Origin: Micractinium sp. NFX-FRZ
Lineage: Eukaryota > Chlorophyta > Trebouxiophyceae > Chlorellales > Chlorellaceae
Direction: 5' to 3'
NCBI GenBank assembly: GCA_029339195.1
Contig: JAPTJF010000024.1
Location: 1 to 64,000, forward strand
DNA: 64,000 nucleotides
The notes beneath the pieces were generated by a model that was not told the origin of the DNA, ran no database searches, and saw only the letters and a program-made list of their open reading frames with translations. This document shows, piece by piece, positions 1-62,500 of this stretch (position 1 is the first letter of the stretch; each line of letters begins with the position of its first letter). Both the position numbers and the translations under genes were made by a program.

Positions 1-3000
1 CCGGCGCCGGCGCCGGCGGCTCCGCCGCCGCTCCACGGCTGGCGTGGCAGCCGGGCGCGGGCACGCTGCGGCACAGCAGCTTGTGCCTAGACAACCTGTG
101 CTACGTGCCCGCCGACATGCCGGCAGCCGAGGCAGTTACGTCGGTGGTGCGGCCAGCGATACGGCGCCAGCTGGCGGCAATGCGGCTTGATGTGGAGGAG
201 GCGGCAGCAGCGGGGGTGGCACTCGGCATCCCCAACCTGCCGCCGCAGCGCGCCCTGCACTTCCGCCCGCCCGGCTACACACACCACATCACGCTGGTAA
301 GTGTGGGTGTGCGGGGTGGGGTGGGGGTGGAGTTTGTGGGGTGTTATGGGCTGAGTAGGGTGGGGTGATGCTGCTGCAGGGGCTGGCCTGGGGCCAAGGG
401 AGGCAGGTGTGCTGGCTGCTGGTACAGCAGGCATAGCAGCTAGCAGTGCGTACCAGGGCAGGTTGTGCATACACACGCTGCTGGTGCATCCCCTTGCCAG
501 CCTCTCCATCCCCTCCACCTGACAGTTCTTCACACTGCCCGCCCCAGCACCGAGGGCAAAGTGCTGCTGCTCTCACCCAGTGCCTAACATGCACACTTTC
601 CCCTCCGCAGCTCTACCTGCTGTACCTGTAGAAGAGACACAGCGGCTGGATGTCACCGCCCCAGCGCCGGCCAGAAGGAGAGGCACCGCTGCCCACTATA
701 CAGCCAGGCTCATACATTCCACCCCTGCCCTTGTTCCTCTCCCCCCCCTGCAGCTCTACCCGCTGCCCCGCCCCAGCACCGAGCCGGATGAGGCGCTGGC
801 GCCCCGGCGCAAGGCGCTGCACCGCCTGCTGGGCCTCCCCTCCAACCGCCCGCTGCTGCGCGTCGCCAACGCGGTTGACTGGTCAACGGGCGGTGCCGCT
901 GCCGCCGGCAGCGGCGCGCTGGCGGCTGCGCTGGCGGCCGGCGGCACAGGTGGCAAGCTGCGGCTGAGCAACGTGCATGAGGGGCTGCCGGCGCCGCCAG
1001 TGGGGGGCAGCGTGCACCTGGTGCAGGGCAGCTATGATTATTACCACTACATGCAGGTGGGTGCTGACAGTGTTACGTTTTGTTATGAAAAAACAGAGAG
1101 CAGCTCCGTCCTGTGCTGGGTGCCGAGGTTCTGACTGGCAACGCTCCTTGCGCGCTCTGCTCCCCAACCTCCGCAACCGTCCTGCCCTGCGCTCCCCCCT
1201 CTCCCCTTGCCCCTTCGCGTTGCGTTGCTTTCTCGAAGTGGGTGTGTGACCAATGCAGCCGGGGCAGCGCCTACCGCAACCCTCTGTCTTCCATCCTTCC
1301 CCCTTCCCCAAATGCGCATAGAACACATTTTGCACGCCTGCGGCTGGGGCTGCGCCAAACTCCCCCCTTCCTCCAACCATCCCACCCACCCCTCAACCTG
1401 GCCCCCCTCTCTCAGGACAAATTCGATGACTGCGGGTGGGGCTGCGCCTACCGCTCCCTTCAAACCCTCTGCTCCTGGTTTGCGCGGCAGCACTACACCA
1501 CCCGTCCGCCGCCCAGCCACCGAGAGATTCAGGCGGCGCTGGTGCAGCTGGGAGACAAGGAGGCATCCTTCATTGGCAGCAAGTGAGTGGCGGCCGGCCT
1601 GGGGGCAGCCTAGAGACATGGGACATGGGTGGGCTGGGCTGGGCTGGTGCTGTTAGCAGGAAGTGGAGGGGGGTGTGCAGGGGAAAGGTTTTTTTTTTTG
1701 TTATCCTCTGGTCGCCGCCGCCCGGACACCGGGAGATCCAGGCAGACAAATCCCGGTTGTTGCGGGCGGGAGACGAGGAGGCATCCTTCATAAGCAGCAG
1801 TGAGGCGTGGTGGCGGGTCTGCCCCACTTATTGTGCGGGTGAATTGGCAGAGAGCGAGCAAGTGGGGCAAGCACAGGTGGGGCGGAAGGAGGCATCCTGC
1901 AGTGGCAGAAAGTGGGATGTGTGGGAAAGAGGGAGGCAACAGTTCAGGCCAAGGCGAGAGGCAGGGATCCTGGCGGCAATTGAGATGCTTGAGGTAGGGG
2001 GCGCAGCTGGTTCAGATGCGGGGTGGGGGCACCCTCCAGCTGGGGTGCCTGTTCGTCTTCTCACGCACGATGCCCCACATACTGCTTGCCTTGCAGGAAC
2101 TGGATTGGCGCCATTGAGCTGGGCTATGTTCTGGACGCGCTGCTGGGGGTGCAGCACCGCGTGCTCAGCTGCGGCAGCGGCGACGACATGCCCAGCCTGG
2201 CGCGCCAGATTGCGCACCACTTTGACACGCAAGGTGAGCAGCGCAGCACAGGTGGTGTGGCTGCAAGTGTGGGCGGGGATGAGGCTGGGGAAATTGGGGA
2301 CGGCATGCCGAGCTTGGCTTGTGCCGGATCACGCGCCACGCTTTTGAGATGCAGGGTGAGAAGGATGGGGGGTGGGCATGTGTGGCAGGAGCGGGGGCAC
2401 AAGAGGCCCCCCAGCTTCACTGACGGCTGCCCAGGCAGCTGGCGGGCCGTGGTCAATTTCATGCTGCTTTCCCCAACTCACATCCTCGGGCTGCACAGTG
2501 CGCCTTCTGCCGCACGGGCGGCGGCGTGCTGGCCTGCAATCTCCCAGGCTTGGTCTTATGTTGAGCCACGTTTCCACCTCCCCTTCCCCACCTCGCCCGG
2601 CAGACATGGTAGGCGGTGGCGTGCTGCCCTTGTCCCCCGCATCCTGCACCTCTTCTGGCATGATTCCCCTCGTTGTCCACCTCTGCTTCTTCGCCCCTCG
2701 TTCTCCACCTCTGCTTCTTCTCCACCCCTCGTCACCACCCCCGACAGGCACCCCCATCATGATTGGCGGCGGCGTGCTGGCCTACACCCTGCTGGGCATC
2801 GACTTTGACGAGCGCTCCGGCCGCTGCGCCTTCCTCATCCTGGACCCTCACTACACGGGGGCCGAGGACTTGAGGAAGGTGCACGCAGGTCTGTGTGGGT
2901 GTGTGTGGGTGTGTGGTGGTGGGGGAGGGACGGAGGGGTACGTTGTGTGGGAGTGGTGGAGGCGGAGGGTGTCAGGAAGGTCCACGCAGGTGGGGGGCCT

Positions 3001-3474
3001 ACCTTTTGTTCCGGGGTGGCAGAGTTGCATGCCTTTGCAAGGAAACAGCAGAAACGAAGAGTCCAGTGTGGTGGGCAGGGTTGTGTGCCTGGGGGGAGCG
3101 GCTGGGAATCGGCTGCCTGTCGGTGGCTGGCGGGCGGCGCAGAGGTGGGGTGGCGTGGCGTGGGCGAACAGCAGCGCGGGGCCTGGGCGCTGCGACGCCA
3201 GCGGCTGCCAGGCAGGCGCTGGCTAACCCCGCCCTGCCCGCCACACACTGCTCCCATGCACACTGCTTTTCACAAACGAGCTGCTTCCCGCCCCGCCCTG
3301 CTTTGCTCACACACTACTCACACACTCTCCCGCCTGCCCCCGCCTGGCCCCGACTCTGCAGGCCAGTGGGTGGCATGGAAGCAGCCGGGGGACAAGGCGG
3401 CAGCGGGGGGCGACCTGTTTGTGTCCGGCTCCTTCTACAACCTGCTCTGCCCGCAGCGCCCCACCACTGTCTAG
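1..3474 (+). CDS. UFSP2: UFM1-specific protease 2 (UFSP2), 5' partial
   Basis: Cysteine protease that matures the ubiquitin-like modifier UFM1 and removes it from targets such as ER-associated ribosomal proteins. The frame is open from base 3, so the gene starts upstream of the window. Exons: 3-296, 754-1056, 1416-1582, 2097-2233, 2748-2888, 3362-3474; the phases agree at every junction and give 384 visible residues. The last four exons follow the UFSP2 catalytic domain closely. The motif [13 protein letters not shown] carries the nucleophile Cys (codon 1443-1445). [17 protein letters not shown] follows, and [10 protein letters not shown] supplies the Asp (2843-2845) and His (2849-2851) of the triad. 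The protein ends in [12 protein letters not shown], the usual family C-terminus. All catalytic residues are present, so the enzyme should be active. The introns contain degenerate copies of neighbouring exon edges, described separately. The gene is convergent with paralog A. Confidence 0.93.
597..2640 (+). repeat. Degenerate exon-edge copies inside UFSP2 introns
   Basis: 597-630 repeats the acceptor and first codons of the exon at 754 but runs into a stop after six codons. 1327-1362 resembles the GWGCAYR part of the exon at 1416. 1711-1806 is a near-complete decayed copy of the second half of that exon together with its donor, and 1880-1922 is a further fragment. 2296-2345 resembles the end of the exon at 2097. 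2583-2640 resembles the start of the exon at 2748. All are in direct orientation next to their source. Confidence 0.75.
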
Positions 3475-4359: not shown

Positions 4360-6000
4360 TTACAGCATGTGAAGCAGCAGGTGCAGGCCTGCCAGCAGCA
4401 GCACGCTGTACGGCACCAGCAGCAGCAGCCATTCCATCAGGTGCGCTGCACACAGCATGAAGTTGCGCTGGGCAGCAGCAGCGCTAGCAGCAGGGTCTCC
4501 GCGGCTGCCAGCCGGGGCACCAGAACGGAGAGAGGGGGGTGAGGCCTCTCCTGCAGCAAGCACCACCGAGCCCAGTTTGAAGCGCACCCTGGGGCGGGGA
4601 GGGGCGGTGCCGGTGCTTGAGCGGTTGGCTGCCGAGCCTTCGGTCGCGTGGGCCTGAGCGCTGCTCGCAACACTCTCGTTTCTGCCCGTGCGCAGCGCCT
4701 GCGCCTGCTGCCGCCGGCACTGCGCCAGCGCTGCCAGCACAGCCGCAGGCAGGCCGTAGCCCACCACCGCCAGCACCCACGTGTGCATCAACCAGCAGCT
4801 GTGCTGCGCCTCGGGCTGCTGCTGCAGCGCCCAGGTGCCAGGCACCACCGCCAGCACGGTTTGCTGGGCGGCGTGCACGAAGCGGGTGCACTCGGCTGCA
4901 CGGTGCGGCACGGCGGCATGCAGCCGGGCCAGCTCTTGCATGCGTGTCAGCGCTGCTCGCAGCACCAGCGCTTGCACCACGAGATGTTGCTTGAGGGGCA
5001 GCGGGACGAGCGCCGCCAGCGCTGCCAGGAAGAGGGCCTGCGCAGGGGGGCAGGTGTGCAAGTGAGAGGTGTCAGCGGGTTGGTATACTTGGTGGGTGCG
5101 GGAGAGCACCCACCAAGCAGCGGTGGGTTTCAGGGTTCTTGCAGCAAGGGTTACGCACACCAAAGTACTGCATCCGAAAGGGCGCAATGATGAATGCAAG
5201 GCGGGCAGGCGGGCGGGCAGGCGGGCAGGCGGGCGGGCACGGGCACCAGCGCCTTGGCAGAGCAGGCAGGCAGGGACGGGCGTCTCGCACCTCTGCATTG
5301 AGATACAGGCTTCCCTCCTGGGTCGAGGAATTGCCGCCCTGCTGCACAGCACCAGCCTGCAGGCCGGCTCCAGGGCTGGGCAGCAGGCGCACCGGCGCCC
5401 AGGTGCCCGCCGCAGCTGCTGCGCCCACCCGAAGCGCACACCCGAGCGCTAAGCTGCGGAGGCTGCGCCTGCCGTGGCGGCGCCTCTGCACTGCCAGACA
5501 GCACGCCAGTGCCAGAGCCACCAGAAGAAGGCTCCAAATGCCCTGCGTCCACGCCACTGGCGAGTGCTGCCGGCCCGGCGGCGCCCGGCCGCCTGTGGAG
5601 CCGCCGGCACCACCGCCTGCCGCGGGGGCGCCGCTCGCGTCGGGCATGCAGCCCTGGCCAGGCCTGCACAAGTACGAGAAGACTTGGTGAGGCTTGCTAC
5701 AAGAGCTGGTCGTACTACTGTTGCGAGGTCCAAGCTTCGCATGTTCTTCCAGAGCGCTCACCTGCTGCCCAGCCTGGGGCTCACAAGTTTGGGACGCTCT
5801 GTCGTCCGCTCGCAGTCCGCCTCACTGTTGGATTGTCCCCAGACGTGCAGCCCCCCAAAGTAGTGGCAAAGTAGACGGGCTTGGATTGCGGAATCGGGAC
5901 TGAACCGCAGGTGAAACTCCAGCGTGGCAGGAGGGTGGCAACTGTGGCACCTCCAGGGAACAGAAGTCGGTGCCGCCCAGCGAACGCGCCACCTTCCCAT
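4360..6000 (-). CDS. Tandem membrane-protein family, paralog A
   Basis: Unknown function; first of three tandem paralogs. Exons on the minus strand: 6000-5762, 5662/5663-5291 and 5037-4360. The phases agree (2, then 0) and give about 429 residues. The start at 6000 is the first in-frame ATG; a near-cognate GTG lies upstream. The N-terminal part contains LEFHLRFSPDSAIQARLL. Hydrophobic stretches follow: WSLLLVALALACCLAV, ALFLAALAALVPLPL, WVLAVVGYGLPAAVLAALA, and a C-terminal WLLLLVPYSVLLLAGLHLLL. About five membrane spans are likely, with a Ser/Ala/Arg-rich loop before the last one. The cluster QHSCWLMHTW is shared with paralog B, and a variant of it with paralog C. A TGTAA overlaps the stop codon (minus strand 4364-4360). 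Confidence 0.6.
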
Positions 6001-6944
6001 AAACCATGAAGGAGGAACGAAAAGGGCTGGCCAGGCCGTGTGCCCCACGCCAGGTGGAGGTCAGGCCTGTATGGGATGTCGGCGGCGGAGGCGGGCGTCA
6101 CCGGTGCCGTGTGTGGCCTGTTTCACTGCAACCAATGGTTCTCCCTCAGGTGGCCCGTTGCTGCCTGGAGGCTGCTTGACAGTAGCATTTGCGGGCGGGG
6201 CCCGCTGCGTGGCCGCTGGCTGCGCTGATGCAGGCAGCGGGCGCAGGCGTGTGGCCACCCATGGGTCATGTACCTGCTGCTGCAAATGCATGCCTCGCGA
6301 TCGCCTCCTTGCACCGGAAGCAGGGCGAAGCACGGGGGGGGGCATTGGGGGGGACATGGGGGGTATCGAGGGGGTTGACGTGGGGCACATGGGTTGAACA
6401 GCTTGTCAGGAGCTGTCTGCAGGGTACCAGAGGTCCGCACCCACTGACTTGTGGCCACTGGCTTAGCCTGCAGGCGCCAGCTGTGCAAGTGGCAGCAAAT
6501 GGAGGTGTTACAGCAGCGGGAGCCACCTACACAGCGGCCAGCCACACCCATTGCACGCGGGAAGCTCAAAGGGTTTGGCCGAGGTGCTGGCAGCAACGCG
6601 AAAGTTGCATGGGGTGGCAATGTGGGGAACAACTTGGAGTGGTGGACGGGATTCGGCTGCAGTGAAGAGGTAGGCAGTGCAGAGGTAGGCAGTCTGACGG
6701 CGGGGTAGGGGGGACGGCAAGTTCAAAACACGCAGCCATCTAAGTGGAGATGCAAAGAGGGCCCATGGAGGGATGCAGCAGGATGGGGCAGGGGGCCAGT
6801 ACGGGTGGCCGTGTACCGAAGAAGGATGGGCGGCGCTGCCGCCAGCGCAAGAGGAATGCCAGTGGAGGCGCCCGGTTGAGGTGAGCCGGGCACAGAAAGC
6901 GGCGTGTTAAGCAGCGTGCTGCAGCAAACCAGGTATTCAGATCC
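6001..6944. other. Paralog A promoter and paralog B 3' UTR
   Basis: No coding gene is supported here. The right part is the 3' UTR of paralog B, with a minus-strand TGTAA at 6512-6508. The left part should hold the promoter and 5' leader of paralog A. I see no clear TATA element. Confidence 0.45.
6508..6512 (-). terminator. Paralog B polyadenylation signal TGTAA
   Basis: The plus strand reads TTACA, that is TGTAA on the minus strand, about 430 bases after the paralog B stop codon. Confidence 0.5.
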
Positions 6945-8402
6945 TCACAGCATGAGGGCTGCAAGCTCCAGGCCTGCCCAGAGCAGCGCGCTGGAGGGAA
7001 GCAGCAGCAGCAGCCAGTGCAGCAGGTGCACCGCTGGCAGGGCCAGCGCCTGTGCGAGCGAACCGGCAGGGTCGACGCCAGCAGCAGCACTCCTGCTGCT
7101 GCCTTGCGAAAGGGAGGAGGAGGGGGAGGAGGGGAGGCAGGCCGGGGTGCCAATTGCATTGCCTTCGTCCTGCATCTGCATGAACAGGCGCAGCTGGCGC
7201 CACCTGTCGGCTGCGCTGCCGCTGATGTGGCAGGATGAACAGCCGCCGGAGCAGCCGAGCTGGGCGCACAGGGGCTGCGCCGGGGTGGCTGGCGCCCCGT
7301 ATGGCCACTCGCACTCACGCTTGCGCAGAAGCCGCTCATAGCTCCGGCACTGCTCCAGGCGCTGCTTGTATTGCGCCAGCGCTGCCAGCACAGCCGCAGG
7401 CAGGCCGTAGCCCACCACCGCCAGCACCCACGTGTGCATCAACCAGCAGCTGTGCTGCGCCTCGGGCTGCTGCTGCAGCGCAGCACCGCCGGGCACCACC
7501 GCCAGCAGCGCCTGCCGGGCAGCGTGCACGAAGCGGGTGCACTGGGCTGCTGGGTGCGGCACGGCGGCATGCAGCCGGGCCAGTTGGCGCATGCGGGGGA
7601 GGACTGAGCGCACCGCAAGCGCCTGCGCCCACAGATGGTGCTTGAGGGGCAGCGGGATGAGCGCCGCCAGCCCTGCCAGGAAGAGGGCCTGCGCAGGGGC
7701 GGGAAGTGGGCGGGGAGCAGGGAGGCGGCGGGGCGAGGCGGGAGTGTGTCTGGTCGGATTGCGAGTGCGTTTGCTTTCTCCTACCCACATCTGCCCGCGA
7801 TAGATGCAACCTGCCCCGGCCCAGTGCCTTCGTACTGGAGGAGGACAACCTCCCGCTTACCCCTGAGTCCTGTCCCTTGCCTGATCGCCCACCTGCCCAT
7901 CAGCTATGCTACCCCCTCTCACCTCACCACTGGCAAACATGCCCATCACCTCGCCCGTGGGTTGCAGGGGGTGGGGCAGCAGCCTTTGCTTTCCGGGGAG
8001 GGACAGCAGGTGCGGGGGCGACCAGGCCGCCGCCGCCACCGCCAGAGCGAGTCTCAGAAGGCATCGGAGGCCTATGCTGTGGGTTCCCCAGCTGCGGATG
8101 CTGCTGCGCCGTTGCACACTCTGCCAGCCAGCGAGACCCAGCCCGGCCACCAGCCGCCATTGGTGCTGCGGCCAGGCCGTGGGCGGGTGCGGCGCCGGCG
8201 GCAGGCCGCCGCCTGGTTGGGTACATTCACGGCCGGCTCCCCGGACATGCATGGGCGCCATCCCGGGCCCTGCACAGGATGGTGCTGTGGACGGTCATGG
8301 ACCTTCATACGCAGCAAGGCTACCTAAATGGGCCCGCCAACCCGGTGTCCAGAACCGCCGTCCGACCGGAGTGAACGGGGCCTCCGCCGGAACGTTTTGC
8401 AT
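6945..8402 (-). CDS. Tandem membrane-protein family, paralog B
   Basis: Unknown function; second of three tandem paralogs. Exons on the minus strand: 8402-8324, 8269-7923 and 7688-6945, with phases 1 then 0, about 389 residues. The two 3' exons are well supported by paralogy. The first exon (MQNVPAEAPFTPVGRRFW) rests on phase agreement and an ATG only. The last exon begins ALFLAGLAALIPLPLKHH, exactly where the other two copies have their acceptor. It keeps the block around QHSCWLMHTWVLAVVGYGLP and ends in a membrane span, HWLLLLLPSSALLWAGLELA. A Cys-rich insert (CGG/CSSC-like) and a Ser-rich stretch lie in the loop. Conserved intron position and the QALAVR/QALVLR motif show common descent from one gene. 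Confidence 0.58.
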
Positions 8403-8609
8403 GCTCGTTTCGATTTGCACGTTGTGACTTTCACAGTGTGGAGCGGTGCGGTGACCCTGGGCGCGTCAAAGTATGTCCCATACCTGCCAGCGCCCTGCTG
8501 AAGTTTGCGACGGCTCACACCCCTCCTAGAGCTTTGCAGTCGATTTAGAACAACCAATGTCTGCTATTAGATGCCTGGGGGTCGGCCGGCGCAGGGTAAT
8601 GCTCACTGT

Positions 8610-9199
8610 TCAAGTGGGCAACGACTCCGCACTGCTGGCGCCAGCCTGGCAGTCGTGAATGACACATGAGCACGCAGCGCTGGCTGCCCCAGCCAATGCG
8701 CTGGGAAAGTCGCCGTGAGAGGAATATGATGTAGCTTTGGCCACTTCAAGTTGATTGTGTTGCAACTGCTCAGCTTCAGGAGTGCATGAGCGTTGGTGGG
8801 TGTCGTCGGCAACAACATGCGACAGATGGAACTGGAGCTGGCGCCGGCAGGCCCATGCAGAGCTGGCAGGGATGTGGCGGAAGCTGCGAAAGAACAGCAC
8901 CACCTGAGCGTGCCCACACCTGTGCCCACACCGGCGCAGCAGAGCGGCCGCAACTTGGGTGCACTGGCACGTGTGCGCGCTGTGCATGCTGTGCACGGCT
9001 TACCTGCCACTGTTGATGCCCCCTGCCTGAAGCAGCGGTCGGGCAGCCTGCAGCACAGCTGCTGAATGGCCACCCTGTGGACTGCAATATGCAATATCTG
9101 CTGCCCACAGCTGTGCTGGGAGCGCTCACCGTACGGCTGGCGTACGGCACGCCAGAGGGCAGCAGCTGCAGGGCAGCGGTGCAGAGCCAGGGCGAGCAT
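8610..9199 (-). CDS. Possible small mitochondrion-targeted protein
   Basis: Weak call. Exons on the minus strand 9199-9130, 9058-9004 and 8883-8610 join in phase (1, then 2) to give about 132 residues. The splice sites are good (GTGAGC and GTAAGC donors, CAG acceptors). The start MLALALHRCPAAAALWRAVR is Arg/Ala/Leu-rich without acidic residues, like a mitochondrial presequence. The rest (around RRQLQFHLSHVVADD) resembles nothing I recognise. It lies between paralogs B and C on the same strand. It could instead be untranslated transcript or chance. Confidence 0.3.
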
Positions 9200-10176
9200 G
9201 CTGCTCAGGCGCTCAAGAGCGGCGTTTGGCAAAGGGGGCAGTGATGACGGCCGCCACCCCCGCCTCAAGAACGGAGGTCTGCGGGGCGGCACGCTGCTGC
9301 CACTGGCTACGACTGGCGCATTGCGCCTGGCAGGCTGGCCGGCCGCACCGGCAGCCTGCTGAGCAGCCTGCTCAGCTGAAGGTTACTGCCCGCAGGTTAC
9401 CGCAGGCACCTCAATAGCTCACGGTCCCCTCCACTCAGTGAGATTCCTTAATTCCCAAGCCTTGCCCAGCTGCCTGCCCTCGCCTCTTCCACCGGCTGTG
9501 CTGTTGTGCTGGGCAACACTTGATGTGTTGAGCAGCATTGCCCTCCTCTGATCAGCTCAGCTGGTGTGGCCGCCCTGGAGGTGGCGTGCTGTGCCAGCCA
9601 GCACATGTGGTGCTGAAAGAAGACTACTTACAAAGGATTGAACGAGGCATTGGCAAGAGATACGTGCTTGGCAGCGGTTGGGCTACTTGGCCAGGATTGA
9701 CAAAAGGCATTGATAAAAAAACTACGTGCGTGGTGCTGATCATTGTCGACTTGCAGAAGGTTGATGTGCACTGTGTGCATGTGTGCTTTGCAGCGCCGAG
9801 GGTTCCGGCATGCAGTGGGCGCAGTGAAAAGGTTGATGGGCGTGTTGGGATGCCTCAGTGCCCAATGGTAGTGCCAATACAGACATTAAGCCCTCTGGGC
9901 GCAAGCATGTTGTGTGGGTACCGAGCAAACGGGAAGAAATGGAACGGGTTGGTATCCTGGGCCCAAGGCCGACGCAAGGGGCTGGGAGGGCAGACTGTGA
10001 AGATGGACAGGAAGGGTGTGAACAGGGCAGGAGGCACCTGCCTCGCTACCCACGTAAGCTTGGCTTGCATCAAAGAAAAACAAAGCTACGATCAAGGGCT
10101 TCAAGAAGTTCTTCTTCCTCTCTTCTTCGGCAAGCAGGAACGCTGGGGAAGTGGCTGACCACAACGCGGCGGTGCA
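9200..10176. other. 3' region of paralog C
   Basis: This holds the paralog C 3' UTR, with a minus-strand TGTAA at 9632-9628, and flanking DNA. The part around 9600-10100 is clearly richer in A+T than the coding DNA around it. A long open frame on the plus strand here (9538-10158) has no recognisable motif and was not accepted as a gene. Confidence 0.4.
9628..9632 (-). terminator. Paralog C polyadenylation signal TGTAA
   Basis: TTACA on the plus strand, TGTAA in the sense of paralog C, about 545 bases past its stop codon. Confidence 0.45.
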
Positions 10177-11295
10177 TTAGGAGAGGTGCACTGCCACCTC
10201 CAGGGCAGCCCACAGCAGGGCACCCGAGGGCAGCAGCAGCAGCAGCCAGTGGAGGAGGTGGGACACAAGGTGGGGCAGGCGGATGTGCGGCTCAGCAATA
10301 AAAGGGGAGGGGCCCCAGCCAGCGCTGAGAAGTGGGGCGTGGGTGGGGGAGCAGTTGCTGCTGACGTCAGAGGCACAGAGGCCTGCAGGGAGGAGGGTGT
10401 GAAGGCGGCTGTCGCTGCCGGTGAGCTGCGGGCTTTGCATGGCGAGCTCAAACGCCGCCCCCTTGCGCACAAGTGCCGCACTGAGCTCGGCACTGTGCAT
10501 GTGCATGTGGGCTGCGGACTGCTGCCGCTGCCGCTGCCACCACGCGGCGTGCTGCGCCAGCGCTGCCAGCACAGCGGTGGGCAGCCCCCAGCCCAGCACC
10601 ACAGTGAGCCATACATTGGCCATCCAGCAGCTGTGCTGCGGGGACAGGGTGCTCTGCTGCTGCTCCGGGGCGCCGGGCACCACCGCCAGCACGGCAAGCC
10701 ATGCGCAGCGTGCAAAGCGTGCACACGTGGCGGCCCCGTGCGGCTGCGAGGCGTGCAGCAGGGCCAGCGGGCGCATGCGCGCCAACGCTGACCGCAGCGC
10801 CAGTGCCTGGCACCACATGTGGTGCTTAAGGGGCAGCGGCAGCAGCAGCGGCAGCGCTGCCAGGAAGAGGGCCTGCGCAGGGAGGTACGGGATGAGTAGG
10901 GGATGAGTAGGGGATGAGTACTGACTCAGCCCCAGGTGGCGAGCAGGTGTGGGGTGTGACAGCTAGCAGTGTGAAGTGAGCAGCGCAGGCACCCTCTATT
11001 GCGGTCTCACCTCTGGGTTCAGCCAAGCGTTGAAGCCACCAGGTGCCAGCAGGGGCATGGGCGGCAGCAGGGGCGCCCAGGCAGCGGCCACCGATGCCAT
11101 GCCCAGGCGTACCGCGCAAATAAGCGCGGTACGCTGCAGCGGGCATGTGGTGCCCAGGCTGCGGCCTCGGCGGCAAGCCTGGCACCAGGCCAGGGACATC
11201 CCTGCTAGAGTCATACGTGCAGCACGTGCCATCTGCTGCAGCTGGCTGGGGGGCGGCGGGGGCGGCGGCGGCCTGCTGCGCTCTCCGCCAAGCAT
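10177..11295 (-). CDS. Tandem membrane-protein family, paralog C
   Basis: Unknown function; third and most diverged tandem copy. Supported minus-strand exons: 11295-11011 and 10872-10177, joined in phase 0 at the same place as in paralogs A and B, at least 326 residues. The 3' exon starts ALFLAALPLLLPLPLKHH. It has HSCWMANVWLTVVLGWGLP in place of the paralog A/B block and ends in a hydrophobic span, HWLLLLLPSGALLWAALEVA. The upstream exon shares the VAAAWAP motif with paralogs A and B. ATG 11295 is the first in-frame start after a stop, but a further 5' exon between about 11300 and 11570 is possible. Confidence 0.55.
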
Positions 11296-50087: not shown

Positions 50088-53000
50088 TCATTGTCCTTCC
50101 CTCTGCTTCTTACGCTGGTGCCTCCCCTCGCCGCCAGTGCCGCCGCCGCCGCCCTTCAGCTTTTTCGTGCTGCCGCCGTCTCGCTGCTTGCCGTTTGACG
50201 CGCCGCTGCCGCTGCCGCCCTGCTGCTGCTTCTCCTGCTGCTGCTGCCGCCGCTTCTTGCCCCCGTCGGCGGCCTTCACCGCAACAATGCCGCCCGGTTT
50301 GAGCGCCGCTGCGCCGCTGCCGCCCACCGCGCCCTCAAAGTCTGCTTCCGACGCAATGGCAAACTGGGCCAGGTCTTCGGGCCGGAACTGCTCCCGCATC
50401 GCCGCCTTGATCTCCTGCGCATCGGCGGCGGGAGCGGCAGGGGGAGAGGGGTTTAGAGAACGGGTGCAGCACAACAGGACGGTTGGTTGTTGTGAAGAAG
50501 CGTGGGTGCAGAGATGCCAAAAGGTGCACTTTGGGATGCAGAAGGAGTGAGGTAGGGTTTTAAATTGCTACTGATGCACCTTGCAGTCAAGGATGCAGAG
50601 AGTGAGTGCAGGTGAGGGTGCCTCAGACTGCGGGTTGCCCCGCGCCGTGTGCGCAACTGCCGATCCATGGCGGCCCCCCCGCCCCCGGCGCAGGCGATCG
50701 GCACCCCCAGCCCCGGCAGAGCGCCGGGGACCGGCGGGCCGTTCGCTGCTGGTGGGGGCACCCCCGCGCGTGGGTGGCGTTAACCCAAGGCAGAAGGCCG
50801 CACCCTCTCCGGGGAGAGGAGGGGGCACATGCATGCCTGGTGCCACCGCGGGGTGGGGGCCGGATCAGCGGCGGCCGCTGGTAGGTTCGTGTCTGCGAAG
50901 CAGACGCCAGCAAGCACAGCCGCGGCACTGCGCCCAGCTGGCAAGGTTCGTCACGGGCGATGCAATGCGGGGTGTGTGCACAATGCCAAAGCCCAGAGCG
51001 GAAGGGGGTGGCCCAGCTTCCATCAAACAAACGTGCGCATATGTTCAGTGCGTGGGTGGTGTATAGCTGGGCATTGAGGGTGGTGTGCAGGGTACTGGCC
51101 AAGGGGTGCAACATCTGGAGTGTGGGAGATGCAAGCCAAGAGGGAGGCAGGCTAGGGTGAGCCTGCATGCCGCCCTGGCACTAAACAGCCGGCACCGCCG
51201 GCTGCGCCACCTCAGCAGACCTCCCTCCCCCCCCCGCTCACACACCGCTTGTCAACCCCTCGTCCCCAGCATGCAGCCGCTCTCCCATCTCACTCCCAGC
51301 CCCCCTGCCCCCCAAGCTCCCACACTTTCTCGCCCTCACCCCTCCACCGCACGCTCCTTAACACTTTCACGCGCACACCCCAAGCTCCCACCCTGACCTC
51401 TCCCCACCTGCGCCGCCTCGTCCAGCTCAGCGTCCAGCTCAGCCTCGTGCGGCGCCAGCTTGGCGGCGCGCGCCGTCAGCGCCGCGCTGGGCTTGGGCAG
51501 CGCGTGCGCCACCTCAGCCTCCTTGGCCGCCCGCAGCAGGCCGTGCAGGCGGCGCAGCGCCTTGTTGAACAGAGCCAGCGCCTGGCTGGGGGGCAGGTCC
51601 AGCGTCTCCTCCAGCTGCAGGGCGGGACAACAACATGGCCGGCCTCTGTTATACACTGCGCTCCTCCCTTCCCACAGTCTCGCACACACCCTCACTCCTG
51701 CTCCTGGTACCACCCTCGTACTTCTCACAATACAACCACCTTGCCGCGCAGGTGCCGCTGCAGCCCCGCGCGTGGCGGCAAGAGCATACACACGCCCGGC
51801 ATCTGTGGGGGAACCAGCCAGCCAATCAAAGGGGGCGGAGCGCCCCTTGAAAAGGTACGCTCTTTGTCGGGCGGAACCCAGCAACAAAATCAAAACGGGG
51901 GCGCACCTTGCCGATCTCGTGCTGCTGCAGCCCCACGCACGCCAGGATGGCTGCCTGGGAGTAGGAGAGCGGTGCAGGCAGGCGGCCCATGAAGTATGCG
52001 TGCGCCAGCGGGGGCACCAGGTCCAGGATGAGGTGGTGGTCCACCAGGTTGTTGGAGTAGGCCTGGCGGGGGTGGGGTGGGGGGGGGCACGGGAGTTGAA
52101 GAGTTAAGAGGTGATGCCACTACATAGCCAGAGGTGGTGGTCCACCAGGTTGGAGTAGGCCTGGCGGGGGCGGGGGGAAGGGAGGCGGGGGGCACGGGAG
52201 GAGGTTGAGGAGGGGTGGGGTGGGGTGGGGTGCAAGGGGAGTGCTCACAAGGGCACCCAACACACACAAGCACATGTGCCCAAGGAACTGTCTACTGTAA
52301 GCATAAATGCCTAAGCATCTTGAGGGCACCCACCTGCAGGCGTTTCAGGTCGTAGGGCGACATGGAGGCGCCCCCCGGCTTGTGCACCACCACCCCCGAG
52401 GCCAACGCCTTGCCGCTCTCCGCCTCGCTCCACGTCAGCTTGGGATCCAAAATGGACAGCACCAGGGCGGGGGCAAACTCTCGGAACGCGCCTGCAGCGA
52501 GGCGGGCGGGCGGGTGGGGTGGAACGGTGGGTTGGTTGGAAGGCGGAAGGGGCAGAAGTGAGCCTGTGGTTGAGGAAGGAGAGCACTGGAGCAGACTGCA
52601 AAGTCTGCCAAAGTCTCTGCAAGCTGGTGGTGGGCGATGCAGGGAGACTCGAGCTTGGGGCGCAGGCACAAACCAGGCGCTGGCCGCGGCGTGAAGCGGT
52701 GGCGGAAGACGGAGGCAGGGCGTGCCCCAGCGCACACAGCGTCCCCCGGCATGCCCCCAGCACGCGCAGCGCGCCCACCTGCCAGCAGCGTCATGAAGCG
52801 CGAGCGGAAGTCGAGGACAAAGGGGTCCAGCCAGGCGGGGTCTGCCACGTCGGGAGACTGCAGCGGGCGCAGCATGATCACCGTGTGCTCGCCTGCAGGC
52901 AGGCAGCGGTGGTGGTGGGTGGGTAAGGGAGGGGAGGGGAGGTGGGGAGGCGGGGGGAGGCAGACGGCATGCATCCCCTGGCAACCCGTGCTGCCTGTTG

Positions 53001-53591: not shown

Positions 53592-56500
53592 AACCCGTGC
53601 GTTCACCTGCGCCCTGCGCCGCGGCCGCGGGCCCGTTGGACGAGCGGTTGCCGGCTGGCGCCGCTCCCCTGCCTGCCCGCTGCTCTTCATCGTCGTCGGA
53701 CATGACGTCCGCTATCTGCCCCTCGTAGTAGCGCTTGAGCTGGTCCAGCGCCCGGGAGCCGTACCTGTTTGAGGAGGGGCAGGCGGGAGGGGGCACGCGT
53801 TAAAAGAGGGGCAGAGGGAGCGGATGAAGAGGCAAGAGGAGAGGCACAGAGGAGGGTTGGGTGGGGCAGGACGGGGGCGGTGCAGGAGGCGCAGGGGGTG
53901 AGGAAGGGAGGCATGGCAAGAGGCATTCACAGCAGCATTCACAGTGCCCAGCACGCGTGCCCAGCGAGCGTGCACGGCACCCCAGGCCGACACTCGCAGG
54001 CACAGGCACAGGCATGGGCACAGGCAAGGGAGCGGGTACAGCCGGTGCAAGCGCAGCAGGCGCGGCAGGCGCGCTCACCCGGCGCGCGGCACCTCTGGGT
54101 GCACCGCGATGCGCACCACCCGCGCCCCGCTGAGGCTGGGGAACTCGGCGTCCTGGAACTGCTGGCCCACCGTCCAGGGGATCAGGTCGCCCTGCGGCAC
54201 GGGGACAGACGGAAAAAAAGGGCGCGGAAACATGAGGATTCAGGAGGGCTAGGGAAGCCGGCGCCCGCTGTCCAGGGGATCAGGTCGCCCTGCGGCACAG
54301 GAGGGCACACAGAGCACGGAGGCAACACAAGTCCAGAGAGTTTTAAAGATTTGGGGCTGGGAAATTCTGCGCCACCTGGAGCTGCCGGGCCCCTACCGGC
54401 GAAGCATGCACAGCCTTCCTTCTTTCTTCTGTAGCATGCCCCCGCGCCCCAGCACCCCGCACCCACCGCTGCTGCTAACCTGAGGCAGCTGCCCCGCCGC
54501 CAGCGAGGCCTGGGCGCTCTTCTTGGAGATCGCCCCCTCCAGCGCCACCTGGACCACAGCAAGCACGTCGGGCAGAGCGTTCTGCGGGGGGGGGGCGGGG
54601 AGGGAGGGAGGGAGGGAGGGAGGGAGGCGGGAATGTGAGGGCGGAGCGGTTTGCAGGGCGGAAGGAGGGAGGGAGAGCGGGCGACTTGATGCGGGCAGGC
54701 ACCGGCTGGGCCAAGCAGGCGGGGGGTGGGGGCGCACGGCAGGGGCGCAACCGACAGCCGGGCCGAGGGTCACCCGCCCTCGCCCGTGCCCCTGCCTGTT
54801 CTCGGTTGGCAGGTCTGCCCCCACCCAGGATTTTCCCGTGGGACGCCGCACAAACAACACAGAAGCACAGTGGACATCCCATCTCGCACCCATGCCACAC
54901 GCACACAAGCCTACACACCCTGCGCACGCAACACCCCCCGCACCTGCGTCTCGTCCACCGGACCCAGCAGCACGAAGAGGTGGTGGGCGGGCGCGTCGCT
55001 CATGAGTATGAGGTCGTTGGGGGTGTTCTTGTAGTGGGAGGCGACGTAGAGGGACATCATGCGCTGGAGGAAGGACTCGGAGGCCTGGGCAGGGGCAGGG
55101 GGGCAAGGGCGGGTGGGGGAGACAGGTAAGGGTGTGTTTGGGTCGCTTGCAATGACACAGAGAAGCAGTGTGCGCTGCAGGAAGGACTCGGGGGCCTGGG
55201 CAGGGGCAGGGCGGGGGGTAGAGCGCAACAAGTGCATACACGTAAGGAAGACAACAAACAAGTGTGCTCGTGTGGCGTGAAGCGACACAGAGGGGCCAGC
55301 GTGCGCTGCAGCAAGGAGGCGGATGCCTGTGTGGGGAGTGAGCAAGAAAGGATGGAGTGTGCAAGGAGGCAGGGCGGGCCCCACAGGTGCGCGCCCCGTG
55401 CGTGCTCGCAACCAAAGGTGCATGGGAGGGAGGGAGGTGCGTGTGGTGAGAGGAGGGAGGTGCGCGGCCAGTGTGTTGGAAGATGAGGGTAAGAGGAGTG
55501 TGGCACCCAAAAATTGAGGTGCAGGGGAGGTGCAGGGATGTGCGCAGCCAGTGTGTTGGAGGGTTGCCATGGGGGAGGGCACAGCCAACGATTGAAAGCT
55601 GACGTGTGATGTGGCAAGCAGCGCGACCGGGGGCCCCAACCTCTGTCAAAGGGGCTCCCACTGGCGATGCTTGCCGTGGGAGTGCAAGTGTGCATTGAGA
55701 CAACAAGAAATCCTTTCACAAACGAAACCATGCAGGGCACGCCTGGCGGCGGCGGCGGCGCAGGGAGCGACGCGCACGGCGCCTCAGGCCCGCGAATGCG
55801 GCCAAGCAGGCGGCCCCAGCAGCACCTGTGTGCGGCAATGCAGCAACATCTATACAGAACGAAACCGCGCATGGAACATGTGGCCAGCGCACCTTGTGGA
55901 AGGAGAAGAGCGTGTCGCGCTCCACATAGTACAGCTCGCACTCCTCTGCACAGCAGGCACAGCATGGCAGGCAGGCACAGCGGGGGGCGACTAAGAAACG
56001 GGAGTCTGATGGTCGCTCCGGCGCGGCAGCTGCCGCGTGTGTGCCCCCGCCGCGCTCTGCGCAGCCGCACACGCCCAGCCGTGGCCGCCCTGCCCACCTC
56101 TGCCGCCTCCCCTTGCCACGAAACAGTCGTTAGAAAACCAGTTGTCATCCTCACCAGGGTGCGGCAGGCGCGCGGGGGGCGGCGGCGTGTGCTCTGCGGC
56201 ATCCAGGCACAGCAGCTCGTTGAGCCAGCGCTCCACACGGTCGCCCAGAGAGTAGCTGCACAGCAAAGGAGGGGGAAGAGAAGAGGTGAAGGGCAGGGGT
56301 TGAGCGTGTGCGAGGGCAGAGGAGCTTGTTGAATCTGCGCTGAATGCGGCCCCCCGGGCTCACAACCCCCCCCAGAAATACACACCTCACCCCTTTCTGT
56401 AGTGCTGTTGCAGAAGGCCAGCTCCCCGGGGAAGGTGTGCCTGCCCCACCACCTCCTCCCATGTATGCACACGCCGTGCCCACCCAACACCACTCTTGCT

Positions 56501-59500
56501 GCAACGAATCTATGTGGCAGTGCAACTCTTGTTGCAACGAATCTATGTGGCTAGCTCACCGGATGGGCTCCCCCAGAATGACCTCCCGGAACGTGCGCAT
56601 GCCGCTGCCCGCGCCCGCCGCCGCCTCGCCGCTGGCGCCGCCGCCCTTGCCCTCCCCGCTTGCCAGCTTGGCGCCCTGCTGGCGCAGCTGCTGAATGAGC
56701 TTCAGGGACAGGCTGCGCCCCGTGCCCTCGTAGCCGTTCACTGCGGGCCCAAAGGGAGGGAGCGCAAGAGGTTTTGCTGTCAGGTGGGGTTGGCCAGCGG
56801 GGCGCCCTGCTGGCGGAAGAACACGAAAGTAACGCCACCCGTGGAGCAGAGGAAGGTGCGATAGGCCCCTTTCCCCAGCCCCACGCCTACCATAGGAGAC
56901 GAGCGTGGCGGGCACGGCAGACGGTGCCCAAGCACCCCAACAGGCCCGCACTGCTGCACCAGCAGCAGCAGCACTAGCCCCACCGCGCCCATGCCGCGTA
57001 CTTGCAGCACCAACACAGCTACACAGGCCGCCTGTCCCCCAGGCGTGCACAAAAGAAAGAAAGGAAGGAGGGAGGTGCACCCACCCGTGGAGCACAGGAA
57101 GACGAGGTAGGGCCCCAGCATGGCCTTGACCAGCGGCAGCGGGATGGCGGCCGCCTCGTCAATCACCAGCAGCTCAGCCTGCGCCAGCCTGCGAGCGGGG
57201 AGGGTGGGGGAAGTGTGAGGCACAGATTGGGTGAGGCACAGATTGGGTGAGGCACAGCGTGAGATGCAGGTGTGTATCAGTGCTGGGTGCCCAATGAGTG
57301 GAAGCCTAGTCAGGTCGCCAGCAAGCAGCTCCGCTTGCTCCAGCCTGGAGGTAAAAAAGTACAGGCTCATGAGCATCAACAGCCGTGTGGAGGTGCTCCT
57401 GCCTCCACCTCGCCACCCCCGCCGCCTGCATCATGCACCGACATGCCGCTGCCGGCACACTGAAACCTTGCTCGAGCGCGGCCAGCCGGCCGGCAGGCGT
57501 GCGAAGCAAGCGTGCCCACCTGGCGTGGTGCTGCGGTTGGATGTACTGCACGGTCTGGCGGTGCGAGCGGTACACGTTGACCCGCACCACCGCCTTGCCA
57601 AAGGCGGGATTGGTGGACTCCACAAGGTCGTAGTCAATGTGCTCCTGCATCAGAGAGGCGATTCGAGCACGTTTCCGTGTGTTTGGCAAGGCGTGTTTTG
57701 GACAGGTGATCGAGGCTTGGTGGGCAAGGTCGGACTCAATGTGCTCCTGCGTCAGGAAGAGATGGAAACAACAGTGCAAGTTGAGTACTCTTGGTGTATA
57801 TTGTGGTGAACGCAGGGTTTGTGGGGTCGAGGTCAGCACAGCGCAGCGCAGGTACTGGTGCAGCAGCAGCAGGAGGAGGGCTCAGTACTTCTTAGAGGGT
57901 TGTTGATTTGGATCCTCATGAGGCCGGAGCCCACTTGGAAAGACTAGATCAAGCTTCTCGTCCCTGCCCTGTCCTGGTGTTTGCTGGCACGGAGTGCAGG
58001 CAGGTCATGAATGCGGCAGGCATGCTGGGCTCGGTACTTCTTGGTAGAAGGTTTTGAGTGTATCCTCAAGGGCCCCAGAGGGACCCGTTCAGAGGATTGA
58101 CAGATTCAAAGTGTATCGTCACCGCCCGCCTGCCAGACAGCAGGCAAGGCATGCAGCTCAGGTGTGCATGTGCATGCATGCGGGGGCGTGCTCAGAGAGT
58201 GTGCAGCTTTGCGCGGCCGGCGTGCTGGACTGGGCTCAGTACTTCTTAGAGGGTTGTTGATTTGGATCCTCATGGGGCCGGAGCCCACTTGGAAAGACTA
58301 GATCAAGCTTCTCGTCCCCGCCCAGCGCTGATGGCCAGCTGACAAGGAGCGCAGGGAAGGTGTGTGTGGGGTAGGCAAGGGTTGCAGCAGGCAGCAGCAA
58401 GCAACACAGAGGTTGGGGCTCAGTACTTCTTAGAGGGTTGTTGATTTGGATCCTCATGAGGCCGAGGCCCGCTTGGAAAGACTAGATCAAGCTTCTCGTC
58501 CCCGCCCCAACTGCTTATGGCTGGCAATGAATGCAGGCAAGGAGCGCATGTGGCGTTGCGTTAAGAGTGAAAGAAGGCCTGTGTGCGGCAGGCGTGCTGG
58601 GCTCAGTACTTCTTAGAGGGTTGTTGATTTGGATCCTCATGGGGCCGAAGCCCCGTCGGCAAGACTAGATCAAGCTTCTCGTCCCCGCCCAGCATGGCAC
58701 AGGGCGCACCAGGCAAACACGCATGCACAGCGTGCACGCGGTGCAAAGCATGGGAGCAACGCGCACGGGCAGGCTGTGCGCACTGCCAAGAGTGCCATGG
58801 CGTGAATGCGTGCAAAATGAGATGAGAGCGCGCTCAGGTTTTTAGGTTATGGTCTCCGCCACGGTTTTGGAGTCAGATTGAACAGCAATTGATCGGTATT
58901 GGTATCATCCTCGCGCGCGGTGCAGGCGTGCAGGCTCGACCACAGCCCAAGAGCAGCAGGAAAGACACACCCACCTTGCACCCCAGCCCAGCCAGCTCCG
59001 TCAGCCACAAACCCAGGCAAGCAGGTTCTATAAAGGAGGGTGCCACCCAAGCTTGAAAAAGCACAAACACACAGACACAAAGGCGCCCAAACCCAAACAT
59101 ACACCGCAGAGAAAGAGAGAAAGAAAGAAAGAAAGAAAGAACAGCCCACCTTGTATCCCAGCTCGTCCAGGCCCTTGAACACAAACTCAAACAGGGTGCG
59201 CAGGTTCTCAGGGGAGGGGGCGGTGACAAAGATGTTCGAGTAGCCCAGACCCAGGGCGCCCGCCACCGCCAGGCCCAGGGCCGCCGACTTGCCGCGCCCG
59301 CGCGCCGCCGTGAGGGCCACCGTGCTGCGCAGCGTCTTCTCTGCAGGGGGAGGGAGGGAGGGCGGGGGCAGCCGGGAGGGAGCGGGACAGGGTGAGGGCG
59401 TTGGGGGCTGGGGCACTGCCAGCAGCAGCAGGCAGATGAATCATCAAGGCGGCAAGTGTTTCCAGAAACGGATTAGTACATGATGAGGCAAGGCAGGTGT

Positions 59501-62500
59501 GTGCGCCACCCACCCAAGGCTGCCATCCAGCCCCAGTGACATCGATTCTAGAACAAGCCAATGTTGTTCTTCCAATAATAGACAGGATGTGTGTGCCACC
59601 CACCCGAGGCTGCATCCAGGAAGGTCACCACCGCCTTGGCCTGGTCCAGCGTGCGGCACTTGCCCACCAGCGCGCCGGCTGGCTGCAGGGTGACACACAC
59701 ACAGGGGACGAGCGAGCAAAGGTGGGGTTGGAAAGACGGCAAGGGGGAGCTCAGAATCCTGGCGCATGTGCGTGCGCGTGCACCTTGACCCGCCCCATGA
59801 CCCATTTCCAACAACATCAGTCACATATGCTGTGAATGCTGTAAGGAGGCACCCACCTGCGTGTCTGCCAGGCTCTCTGTGAGCTCCCGCAGCTCGCCGG
59901 CGGCGGCGGCCGAGGGCAGCTCCACCGCCGGCGTGCCGTCGGGGTTGGTGGGCAGCGGCTGCAGGTACTTTACCTGCGGCTCACAAGAAGGGGGGGGGGA
60001 GAGGCGGGGGCATATGTTGGGTGCGGGGAAGGGAGGCGGGCGGGCGGTGGGTGGTGGGCAGCAGCTGCCAGTACTTAAGAGCTGCAGGCCGAGGGTTCAA
60101 CGGTTCACAGGATCCTGAAGCGGGCCACGGGGGTGCTTGGGAGGGATGGGGGGTCGGTTGGTTGGTACAGTGAGGATGCAATCCAAGGGAAGCTGAGCCA
60201 GCAGGCAGCAAGGCAAGTGTGGCGGCACGGGACCGTGCCCGAGCTCCGCTCTTATGGTGCTGCACACAGGTGTAGCCTGCCTGTCAAGACTCACGTGTGT
60301 GGAGGTGGGCAGTATGTTGAGCTCGTCGTCCATCAGGATGCAGTTCTGGCAGGAGGCCAGGGACAGCACCAGGCGCTCGTTGAAGCGGCCTGTGGGCGTT
60401 GGGCGGGAGCACGGGTGCAAGAGTGCAGGAGCGGGTCAGGGTGGTTGGCAAGGGCGGGGCACGAGGCCAGCGACTGCGGCGTGCGCTTGTTGAAGCGGCT
60501 TGCAAAAGTGGGGAGTTGCAGCAAGGGCGATTGAGGGCATAAGGAATATGAGGAAGAGGTGCTGGCAGGATGTGCGCTGGAAATGCTTCTAGGTTGGGGT
60601 GTGCCAGGGGGGCACACAGTTGGGGGTGCAAAGAGAGTGGTATGAAAGTGGGTATGATGGGATGTGGCGGCGTGGATTGAGCGGCAACTCATGGGGTGTT
60701 CGCCCCGCCCACTTTTGTCACCGCGGTCTGCTCTGCCAAAGCGTGACGAGAGGCCGGCTCATGCCATTTATCGGCGGCCTCTGCTTTTTGCCTGGCGTGT
60801 GTGCGTTTGCGTGCAGGGTGTGATCCAGCGCGGCGCGGGGGCAAGTTGCTGGAGGCAGCTGAATCGTGACAGGGGCCCTCATTCCTAGTAAAGCTTGGCA
60901 CATGCGCAGCCCATCACAGCACAGCATGGCACAGCACGGGCACGGTGACCTGCCGGTGGCTCTCGGTGCGCAGGCGGGAGCGAGCGCCCATGGTCGGGTG
61001 GCAGACCACAGCACAGCACAGCACGCAGGCAGCACAGCGTGCACAGCGCACCCGTGACCTGCTGGTGGCTCTCGGTGCGCAGGCGGGAGTGGACGTCCAT
61101 GGTCAGGGAGTAGAGCTGGGAGAGTGAGTCGAGGGAGGAGAGGAGGAGGACCACGACACCGCCGCCCTCCACCGTCTCCACCGTGCGCGCCATCAGGTTG
61201 GGGGTCAGCGCCTCAAAGTCCTGTAGAGTGTGAGGAGTGAGGAGGGCATGGGGTTTAGGGGAGTGGGAGGTGGGTGGAGTGGGTGCATGCAGGCTCAAAA
61301 TTTCGCCTAAAGTCCCAGTGAGGATCAAGGGAACCATGCCGCTGCCTGCAGCACCAGCGCGCCCTACACGCGTTGCCCAGGCCACTGTTTGCGTCGGCCA
61401 GCCCCTCCTCACCCCCGCGCCCTCCCACAAGCGCCACCCACAAGCACACACAAGTGTGCCCCGCCCACCTGCAGCACCAGCATGCCGTACGTGTTGCCCA
61501 GGATCTTGTGTGTGTCGGCATAGTAACAGTAGCGGATGTTGGTGGAGGCGACAAACAGGGAGAAGGGGTCCTCCTTGTCGGGGTCCAGCAGCCCGCGCTG
61601 CACAACAGATGCGTGTGTGTGGGGTGGGAGGTACAGGAGAATGTGAGCTGGCAGGGGTGCGAGGAAGAGGGAGTGGCCCGGCGCCCAACCAAGCGGGGGT
61701 GTGGCGCTGTGCAGTGCAGTGCAATGGGCTGGGATGGGATGAAATGCGTGCGCTATGGAGAAGGTGTATGGGAACGGGGATGTGGCGGCGTGGATTGAGC
61801 GGCAACTCATGGGGTGTTCGCCCCGCCCACTTTTGTCACCGCGGTCTGCTCTGCCAAAGCGTGACGAGAGGCCGGCTCATGCCATTTATCGGCGGCCTCT
61901 GCTTTTTGCCTGGCGTGCGTGCGTGCGTGCGTGTGAGTGCAGTGTGTGATGCAGCGCGGCGCGGGGGGGCAGATGCCGCTGCAAGCAGCCGAAAGTCCTA
62001 CCCACCCTGCAGCACCCTTTTCTCTTGGCCTGCACGCTTAGTGCACACATCCACACCATCGAATACACATGAACTATGCACTGCCAAGAACCTGCACAGC
62101 AAAGAACACTCAACCGCCAAAGCACTCCCCCTTTCATGCAAACACCCGCCCCAAGCATCCGCCCCCCCGCCCCCTCTCCCCCCACCTGCGCCATCTTCTG
62201 TATCTGCTTCATCCGCTTCTTCTTGTGGCTGCTGAGGTACAGCTCCTTCTTGTAGCACCACAGCACGCTGGGCCGCGCCTTGACCACCGTCTTGCTCAGC
62301 ATGTAGTGCAGGTTGACCACCTGCAAATGAAATACTCAAGAAAGAAAGAAGGGACGCTACGGGTTGGCAGGTGTTTCAGACGCCTTGCTCAGCATGCAGT
62401 GCAGGTTGACCACCTGGGGAGGGGCGAGTGTGGAGAGGGCGGGACAGGGATTGGGTTGAAAGGCTGGAGGAGGGCCGCAGAGGGAACAATTGCAGCTCAG

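Follow-up and report, generated by a model that had tools for sequence, protein, structure and literature searches.

Introns of the green alga Micractinium sp. NFX-FRZ carry decayed copies of the edges of the exons that they adjoin. Such edge copies were noticed in a window made of the first 64,000 nucleotides of contig 24 (JAPTJF010000024.1), and they are confirmed as real and as extending beyond the window to a 314-kb sample of the genome. A comparison of each intron with its own exon edges against foreign-intron controls, proposed as a check by an earlier sequence-only reading of the window, gives matches far above chance. Thus, at p ≤ 0.01, 58/525 donor edges and 45/534 acceptor edges of this enlarged set match their own intron, against 2 and 2 for the reverse complement, i.e., eight to eleven times chance. 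The best explanation, and one that we hold to be probable on balance, is a repeated tandem duplication spanning exon-intron junctions, which lengthens introns and whose products are filtered by splicing.

The genome amounts to 66.07 Mb in 838 contigs, and the window has a G+C content of ~65%. Genes were predicted ab initio, without RNA, by a two-strand finder that had been trained on this same sequence and was run on the window together with 20, later 25, 10-kb stretches of other contigs. This second gene finder was used throughout, a first one having been dropped because it called nearly all the sequence coding. The final set of 314 kb contains 75 genes and 580 introns (median 250 nt), with a median exon length of 110 nt. 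In the edge test, the terminal 40 nt at either end of an exon are searched for in the adjoining intron and, as a control, in 100 length-matched intron pieces from other genes. Introns below 100 or above 1500 nt (24/580 in the enlarged set) and edges whose exon is under 20-30 nt are excluded from the counts. Other intron length limits apply to the position-matched controls (170 nt) and to a sliding 40-nt window scan (150 nt), from which the displacement-30 block was discarded because its windows overlapped each other. The analysis excludes 8 kinase loci and loci L034-L038. Pfam agrees with the names UFSP2, NPL4, D27, COX16, and EamA transporter, and the nearest named proteins come from Micractinium, CDPK and NAT10 being 92% and 90% identical, respectively, to those of M. 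tetrahymenae, which marks a Chlorella-like green alga.

A first set had already given matches at p ≤ 0.01 for 49/434 donor and 44/438 acceptor edges, with 2 and 4 for the reverse complement. Position-matched controls, which cover intron positions 40-130 nt away from the junction, yield 49/451 and 45/453, with 6 and 4 in antisense. Edge matches are present in 95/556 introns. They belong to the exon edge, as 40 nt deeper in the exon they drop to 10/452 on the donor side and 7/466 on the acceptor side. Copies had been claimed to run in the same direction as the exon, those of acceptors lying upstream and those of donors downstream of the real site. This orientation is borne out by four wrong-side tests (exon tail against the intron on the other side, exon head against the next intron), which stay at chance level with 19/1,456 at p ≤ 0.01.

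Junctions of CDPK and NAT10 were also checked at the protein level, an intron being kept when the spliced peptide aligns gap-free to the relatives' proteins (32/39 introns). Among these protein-checked edges, 18/64 match, a figure that provides no genome-wide rate because both genes were taken from the list of the sequence-only reading. One of the 18, at 22921, is a ladder copy called an edge, and the true edge at 23008 was matched in the first set. A Markov control gives 0 segments compared with 108 in the real 264 kb, and a BLAST search of the window against itself returns 39 direct and 2 inverted pairs, 29/39 direct pairs being less than 500 bp apart. Edge copies diverge from their exon by ~14% on average, so that an assembly effect is hardly the source of such copies; near-identical units, such as those of 76 bp at 22767 (97%), could reflect one.

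Copies mostly comprise 20-55 nt of exon edge, and the match generally starts at most 2 nt from the exon end. The reach into the exon extends from 24 to 51 nt for donors and from 21 to 51 nt for acceptors (10th to 90th percentile), and just 5/67 matches contain more than 56 nt of exon. On both sides, the most-copied 40-nt window is made of 30 nt of exon and 10 nt of intron, matching at p ≤ 0.01 and a displacement of 80-130 nt at 60/473 donors and 53/477 acceptors. The splice site is often included, as had been stated from the sequence: it is retained in 25/37 copies in clean register, with GT/GC in 12/19 donors and AG in 13/18 acceptors.

The copies fall within a narrow range of distances from the real edge. 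For the 67 matches with a score of at least 30, the spacing from real to copied edge is 80-140 nt in 42 and below 80 nt in 3, and at least 40 nt separate the real site from the copy in 65/67. Spacings below 80 nt are thus found in 3/67 exon-intron pairs versus 56/79 intron-intron pairs; an earlier complexity-filtered scan gave 0/47 versus 9/32. Spacing modulo 3 shows no clear bias (17/22/19 for donors, 18/11/16 for acceptors). Two or more copies form a ladder at 16 edges, of which two (22921, and 3989 in locus L026) are probably copies miscalled as edges. Among the successive spacings of these ladders, 17/20 are 75-131 nt, and 13/16 first spacings are 76-126 nt. The clearest ladder, at a CDPK donor, comprises copies displaced by 106, 223, 330, 435, and 541 nt. 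Introns with copies are longer than the others (median 335 versus 236 nt), which is partly an effect of ascertainment. The idea that copies are mini-exons, with an inner end bounded by AG/GT, was rejected as the corresponding enrichment is absent.

In the proposed process, units of ~75-130 nt straddling an exon-intron junction would be duplicated in tandem, repeatedly, while the outer, original splice site would stay in use by the exon. Each event would deposit, about one unit deeper in the intron, a short piece of exon edge together with its splice site and, since the outer site is still used, every duplication would lengthen the intron by about one unit. Repeated events would produce a ladder, the intron gaining ~105 nt per step. 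Copies with more than ~55 nt of exon, or lying less than ~80 nt from the real site, would compete too well with it and be lost, which constitutes the splicing filter. Finally, copies may be rewritten from the exon, or be affected by another cause, in such a way that their exon-derived part outlasts the intron half; rewriting in this direction could prevail because the reverse conversion would be harmful. That every copy was born by tandem duplication is inferred from the pattern of the copies, as are the filter and the rewriting.

Several observations support this process. Fresh tandem units that cross a junction and have matches were found, one of 224 bp in CDPK and one of 97 bp in locus L015, and edge copies themselves build arrays with units of 76 and 81 bp. 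Homology on the intron side, as expected for a whole unit, is detected for the nearest copy in 7/13 ladder comparisons, one of the 13 relying on an edge (22921) that is a copy in its own right, and for the second copy in 2/14. Together, the regular ladders, the junction-crossing units, and the intron-side homology point to the tandem duplication of a unit straddling the junction. The proposal that local duplication across junctions lengthens or creates introns is partly supported: the lengthening is supported, the creation of introns through an AGGT route is not, as discussed below.

A number of results nevertheless weigh against this explanation. With uniform breakpoints, the ratio of matches 40 nt deep to matches at the edge is expected to be ~0.43-0.45, whereas 3/918 versus 63/1,059 are observed (score of at least 32). 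If whole units decayed evenly, 70-96% of strong matches should keep intron-side homology according to simulations covering the donor side (82-90% under modest indels, 70-87% under heavy indels). Such homology is seen in 5/33 strong matches and 13/96 matches overall (8/30 in a previous form of this analysis), and a stricter local test on the nearest 6-30 nt of intron gives 0/17 and 0/14. When two intronic copies, which were selected for exon similarity, are compared with each other, their exon-derived part is 0.90 alike and the rest 0.61, close to the unrelated level of 0.57. Decay follows the position in the ladder weakly, the nearest copy being the more similar in 10/16. Where copies are present, the real splice sites do not exceed other sites in strength (p 0.20, 0.76), so that the splicing filter gets no support from them. 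Tandem arrays bring two further difficulties: those lying wholly in introns do not exceed 68 nt per unit (12-68 nt) in 38/39 cases of the 314-kb sample, and of the eight arrays that overlap an exon as well as an intron (units of 27, 33, 36, 63, 76, 81, 97, and 224), the first four have short units. The 76- and 81-bp arrays consist of edge copies that the gene models call exon. Elsewhere in the 314 kb, 30 tandem arrays are located in predicted exons and 6 outside genes.

In a copy, what derives from the exon thus lasts longer than what derives from the intron, also between two intronic copies, and a plain neutral tandem duplication fails on three counts, namely the length of the exon piece, the minimum spacing, and the quick loss of the intron half. 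A more specific proposal, which we put forward tentatively, is that a junction-anchored process builds, at one junction in ten or more, ladders with steps of ~105 nt, a size seldom seen in arrays confined to introns, the exon acting as a protected master that rewrites its own echoes.

The pattern stems in part from a local duplication that is general in introns and that exon edges make visible. Indeed, windows internal to introns have matches in another place of the same intron, with 18-40 matching windows per position class (3.8-7.7% at p ≤ 0.01), and at a displacement of 80-130 nt, 3-7% of them match at most positions. For strong matches (score of at least 40), 33/1,059 exon edges compare with 56/3,878 intron-internal windows, an excess of about twofold at edges. 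This excess is expected if intron duplication is general and if the exon edge is static while the intronic copy drifts.

Mismatches between exon and copy are spread evenly over codon positions (122/1031, 167/1029, and 147/1027), and 48/49 gaps are not multiples of three. Copies are thus not alternative exons under coding constraint, and the recognizable peptides that they encode are best read as remnants. No copy-derived insert was seen in the annotated CDPK proteins of four relatives at the junctions inspected by eye. One peptide pair had been quoted as an example of such an echo: it is present in NPL4 on the minus strand, at 16448-16477 and 16563-16589, ~112 nt apart, whereas the edge is not significant at the DNA level. 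The decay of copied splice sites is close to that expected of neutral sequence, which counts against a selection keeping the copies: GT/GC is kept in 12/19 copied donors for 14.8 expected (site score 1.31 versus 3.36 expected), and AG in 13/18 copied acceptors for 13.6 expected (3.76 versus 4.19).

The main rival explanation is a copying of patches, in which repair or template switching would place in the intron, ~65 nt away, a piece limited to ~20-55 nt of the exon edge plus 0-11 nt of the splice site, the intron part remaining unduplicated. It fits the disappearance of intron-side homology within ~10 nt of the junction and its presence in just 5/33 strong matches. It is nonetheless rather unlikely, as it has to face the regular ladders and the full-unit homology of the youngest cases, and gives no reason for the sparing of exon interiors. 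Selection at the RNA level could also maintain copies as functional decoys, for instance in splicing-factor recruitment or splice-site choice. The persistence of the exon-derived part beyond its flanks and the constrained spacing would fit such a role, but the near-neutral decay of the copied sites and the flat codon pattern render it improbable. Two other ideas were considered. Recursive splicing through an AG|GT ratchet would favor exons ending in AG, which are not enriched among donor-copy edges (31/58 versus 57% overall); exons starting with GT represent 10/45 of acceptor-copy edges versus 14% overall. A cDNA origin, which would place a copy of the neighboring exon beside that of the edge, was not seen in CDPK, the gene inspected by eye.

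Introns newly born by AGGT tandem duplication, and later perceived as exon fragments, would agree with the spacing, which is no shorter than what a minimal intron could plausibly measure. This origin is largely refuted as an immediate source and is very improbable: a copy of the upstream exon's tail at the intron end and a copy of the downstream exon's head at the intron start are found in 1/516 and 1/524 at an ungapped identity of at least 60% over 30 nt, a search that old decayed cases could escape, and the edge copies sit inside longer introns. Chance, low complexity, or a gene-finder artefact might be suspected since the models are ab initio and some copies are called exons by the finder; this is scarcely credible given that position-matched controls return the same 10%, that 18/64 protein-checked edges match, and that the Markov control is empty. 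Mobile introners or other dispersed repeats deserve equally little credence. Some introns do hold dispersed elements, but the CDPK stretch 25350-26400, with its ladder, has itself as its sole match in the genome in a search that skips simple repeats. Stretches of three other genes have 6, 9, and 15 matches elsewhere, of 35-118 nt, which may or may not lie on edge copies. Paralogues with or without a copy, suited to dating an event, were not found for CDPK and these three gene stretches, and no NAT10 DNA of a relative was found in viral or prokaryotic collections.

The eight genes of the window in which edge copies had been reported (UFSP2, NPL4, COX16, the CDPK, an Ala/Gln-rich gene, D27, a DMT transporter, and NAT10) each show, for one exon edge or more, a match within the adjoining intron at p ≤ 0.01, COX16 weakly; the hit list of the window comprises 35 rows. 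In UFSP2 (plus strand), the acceptor edge 754 is copied at 526-555 (displacement 228 nt, identity 0.86) and the acceptor edge 2748 at 2500-2538 (248 nt, 0.95, beginning 17 nt inside the edge). The donor edge 1582 of the same gene has a copy at 1768-1800 (218 nt, 0.91) and a second one displaced by 329 nt, whereas the donor edge 2888 is copied at 2958-2989 (101 nt, 0.78).

NPL4, on the minus strand, displays copies of its donor edges 13132 at 12941-12971 (191 nt, 0.83), 13621 at 13531-13579 (90 nt, a 49-nt copy with an identity of 0.90), and 14990 at 14790-14817 (200 nt, 0.86), the last having another at 92 nt. Its acceptor edge 15083 is copied at 15187-15217 (134 nt, 0.86), and the acceptor edge 13250 has a weak match at 13316-13337 (87 nt, score 25). 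The peptide echo mentioned above, SKALPEFMN at 16563-16589, lies upstream of the exon 16397-16489. At lower coordinates of the window, the minus-strand region 4360-11158 contains successive related membrane-protein segments, 4721-5048 and 7372-7699 being 88% identical, which probably constitute a local gene family and which the gene finder merged with NPL4 into one gene. The only match of COX16 (minus strand) is a weak one of 17 nt at 19949-19965, for donor edge 20042 (score 27).

In the CDPK gene, on the plus strand, the donor edge 22383 is copied at 22510-22550 (displacement 167 nt, identity 0.92, beginning 17 nt inside the edge), and another copy of this edge, listed as the closer one, lies at 22575-22617, of which 22580-22615 was wrongly predicted as an exon. 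At 22767-22943, 76-bp tandem units that are 97% alike contain copies of the acceptor edge 23008/23009 at ~22770, 22845, and 22921, and the final gene model uses the copy at 22921 as the edge. The donor edge 23109 follows with a copy at 23224-23274 (165 nt, 0.76). The clearest ladder belongs to donor 25533, across which the 224-bp tandem unit extends at 25509-25946; its copies at 435 and 541 nt stand where this array ends or past that point. Copies at 26931-26969 and 27042-27085 belong to the donor edge at 26885, which is outside the counts because 26953-26964 is predicted as an exon. Further along the gene, the acceptor edge 27348 is copied at 27235-27285 (113 nt, a 51-nt copy with an identity of 0.90), with an older copy at 212-213 nt, and the acceptor edge 27861 at 27696-27728 (165 nt, 0.92, beginning 8 nt inside the edge). 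Finally, the donor edges 28798 and 29142 have copies at 28898-28937 (139 nt, 0.79) and, weakly, at 29213-29230 (88 nt, score 24).

The following genes are all on the minus strand. The Ala/Gln-rich gene carries a copy of donor edge 31544 at 31437-31484 (107 nt, 0.85). In D27, the acceptor edge 40247 is copied at 40297-40334 (87 nt, 0.83, beginning 8 nt inside the edge) and the donor edge 41308 at 41108-41161 (200 nt, 0.90), the latter copy being 54 nt long with its splice site retained. The DMT transporter gene has copies of two donor edges, 46598 at 46438-46511 (160 nt, 0.77) and 47121 at 46981-47005 (140 nt, 0.84).

NAT10 totals 12 edges with a matching intron copy. Those of donor edges are located at 51740-51771 for 51907 (167 nt, score 23, weak, overlapping an 18-nt predicted exon), 52677-52711 for 52779 (102 nt, score 23, weak), 55962-55988 for 56155 (193 nt, score 27), 56839-56869 for 57085 (246 nt, 0.81), 60943-60998 for 61052 (109 nt, 56 nt long, 0.89), and 61346-61396 for 61469 (123 nt, 0.77). 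For acceptor edges, copies are found at 54263-54289 for 54191 (98 nt, splice site retained, 0.93), 55171-55195 for 55084 (111 nt, 0.92, with an older one at 242 nt), 57324-57344 for 57188 (156 nt, score 27), 60036-60079 for 59973 (106 nt, 0.81), 60458-60499 for 60389 (110 nt, 0.81), and 62381-62413 for 62320 (93 nt, 0.94).

Introns of NAT10 also contain other repeats. The large one includes, at 57878-58693, a tandem array of ~184-bp units with weak matches (74-76%) on two other contigs. A stretch of 180-190 bp is shared by two introns, at 60659-60841 and 61777-61967 (93% alike), and has relatives on four other contigs (79-93%); it is a dispersed element, possibly a small mobile one. A short dispersed element of ~117 nt is similarly present in a predicted intron of locus L026, at ~8222-8339, with 94-95% identity on two other contigs. 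Besides these repeats, the gene finder mistook exon-edge copies for small extra exons at 22580-22615, 26953-26964, and 51740-51757, a mistake that could also affect published annotations of genomes of this kind.

The lengthening of introns and the tolerance of duplicated splice sites are rarely visible because their traces fade. Here, the exon records its own copies, making the number, spacing, and age of events readable from one genome. If the limits of ~55 nt of exon and at least ~80 nt of distance are set by splicing, they provide a measure of the exon context needed by a green-algal splice site. If the junction-anchored process proves true, intron length in this lineage would be set largely by exon-end duplication, bounded by splicing.

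Duplications within genes are a known kind of event, Gao and Lynch having reportedly described internal gene duplication in 2009. In searches of the open-licence literature, no description of short exon-edge copies was found, nor of their frequency, their confinement to exon edges, and the ~105-nt step. Introners are one system for comparison, intron change being attributed mainly to fast-evolving lineages such as green algae (PMC9860276). Unlike introners, the copies described here are local to one gene, and similar introns in many genes were not found, one ladder being unique in the genome and three gene stretches giving short matches. Mutually exclusive exons arise from tandem exon duplication, in which the introns next to the exons are affected along with them (PMC6071210). 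In contrast, only the exon edge is copied here, the frame is broken, and decay proceeds without coding constraint; complete exon copies of the same length and frame were not found among the matches, which reach 15-79 nt into exons with a median of ~110 nt.

Other parallels are provided by cases of intron gain. In the potato RdRp gene, an intron was gained by duplication of an intron-exon structure, namely the branch site, the tract, the 3' site, and a piece of exon, and an 83-bp tandem duplication within an intron of the same gene is mentioned (PMC4974935). That single event led to a new intron, whereas here the events are recurrent, concern ~10% of edges, and show no new intron. In the AGGT tandem genomic duplication model, a duplicated exonic segment becomes a newborn intron (PMC3443670, PMC4974935). 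Local tandem duplication carrying splice signals is common to both; the difference is that in Micractinium, the signature of intron birth is absent and existing introns gain edge copies. As in a tandem array, regular head-to-tail units across a junction are present at the 16 multi-copy edges.

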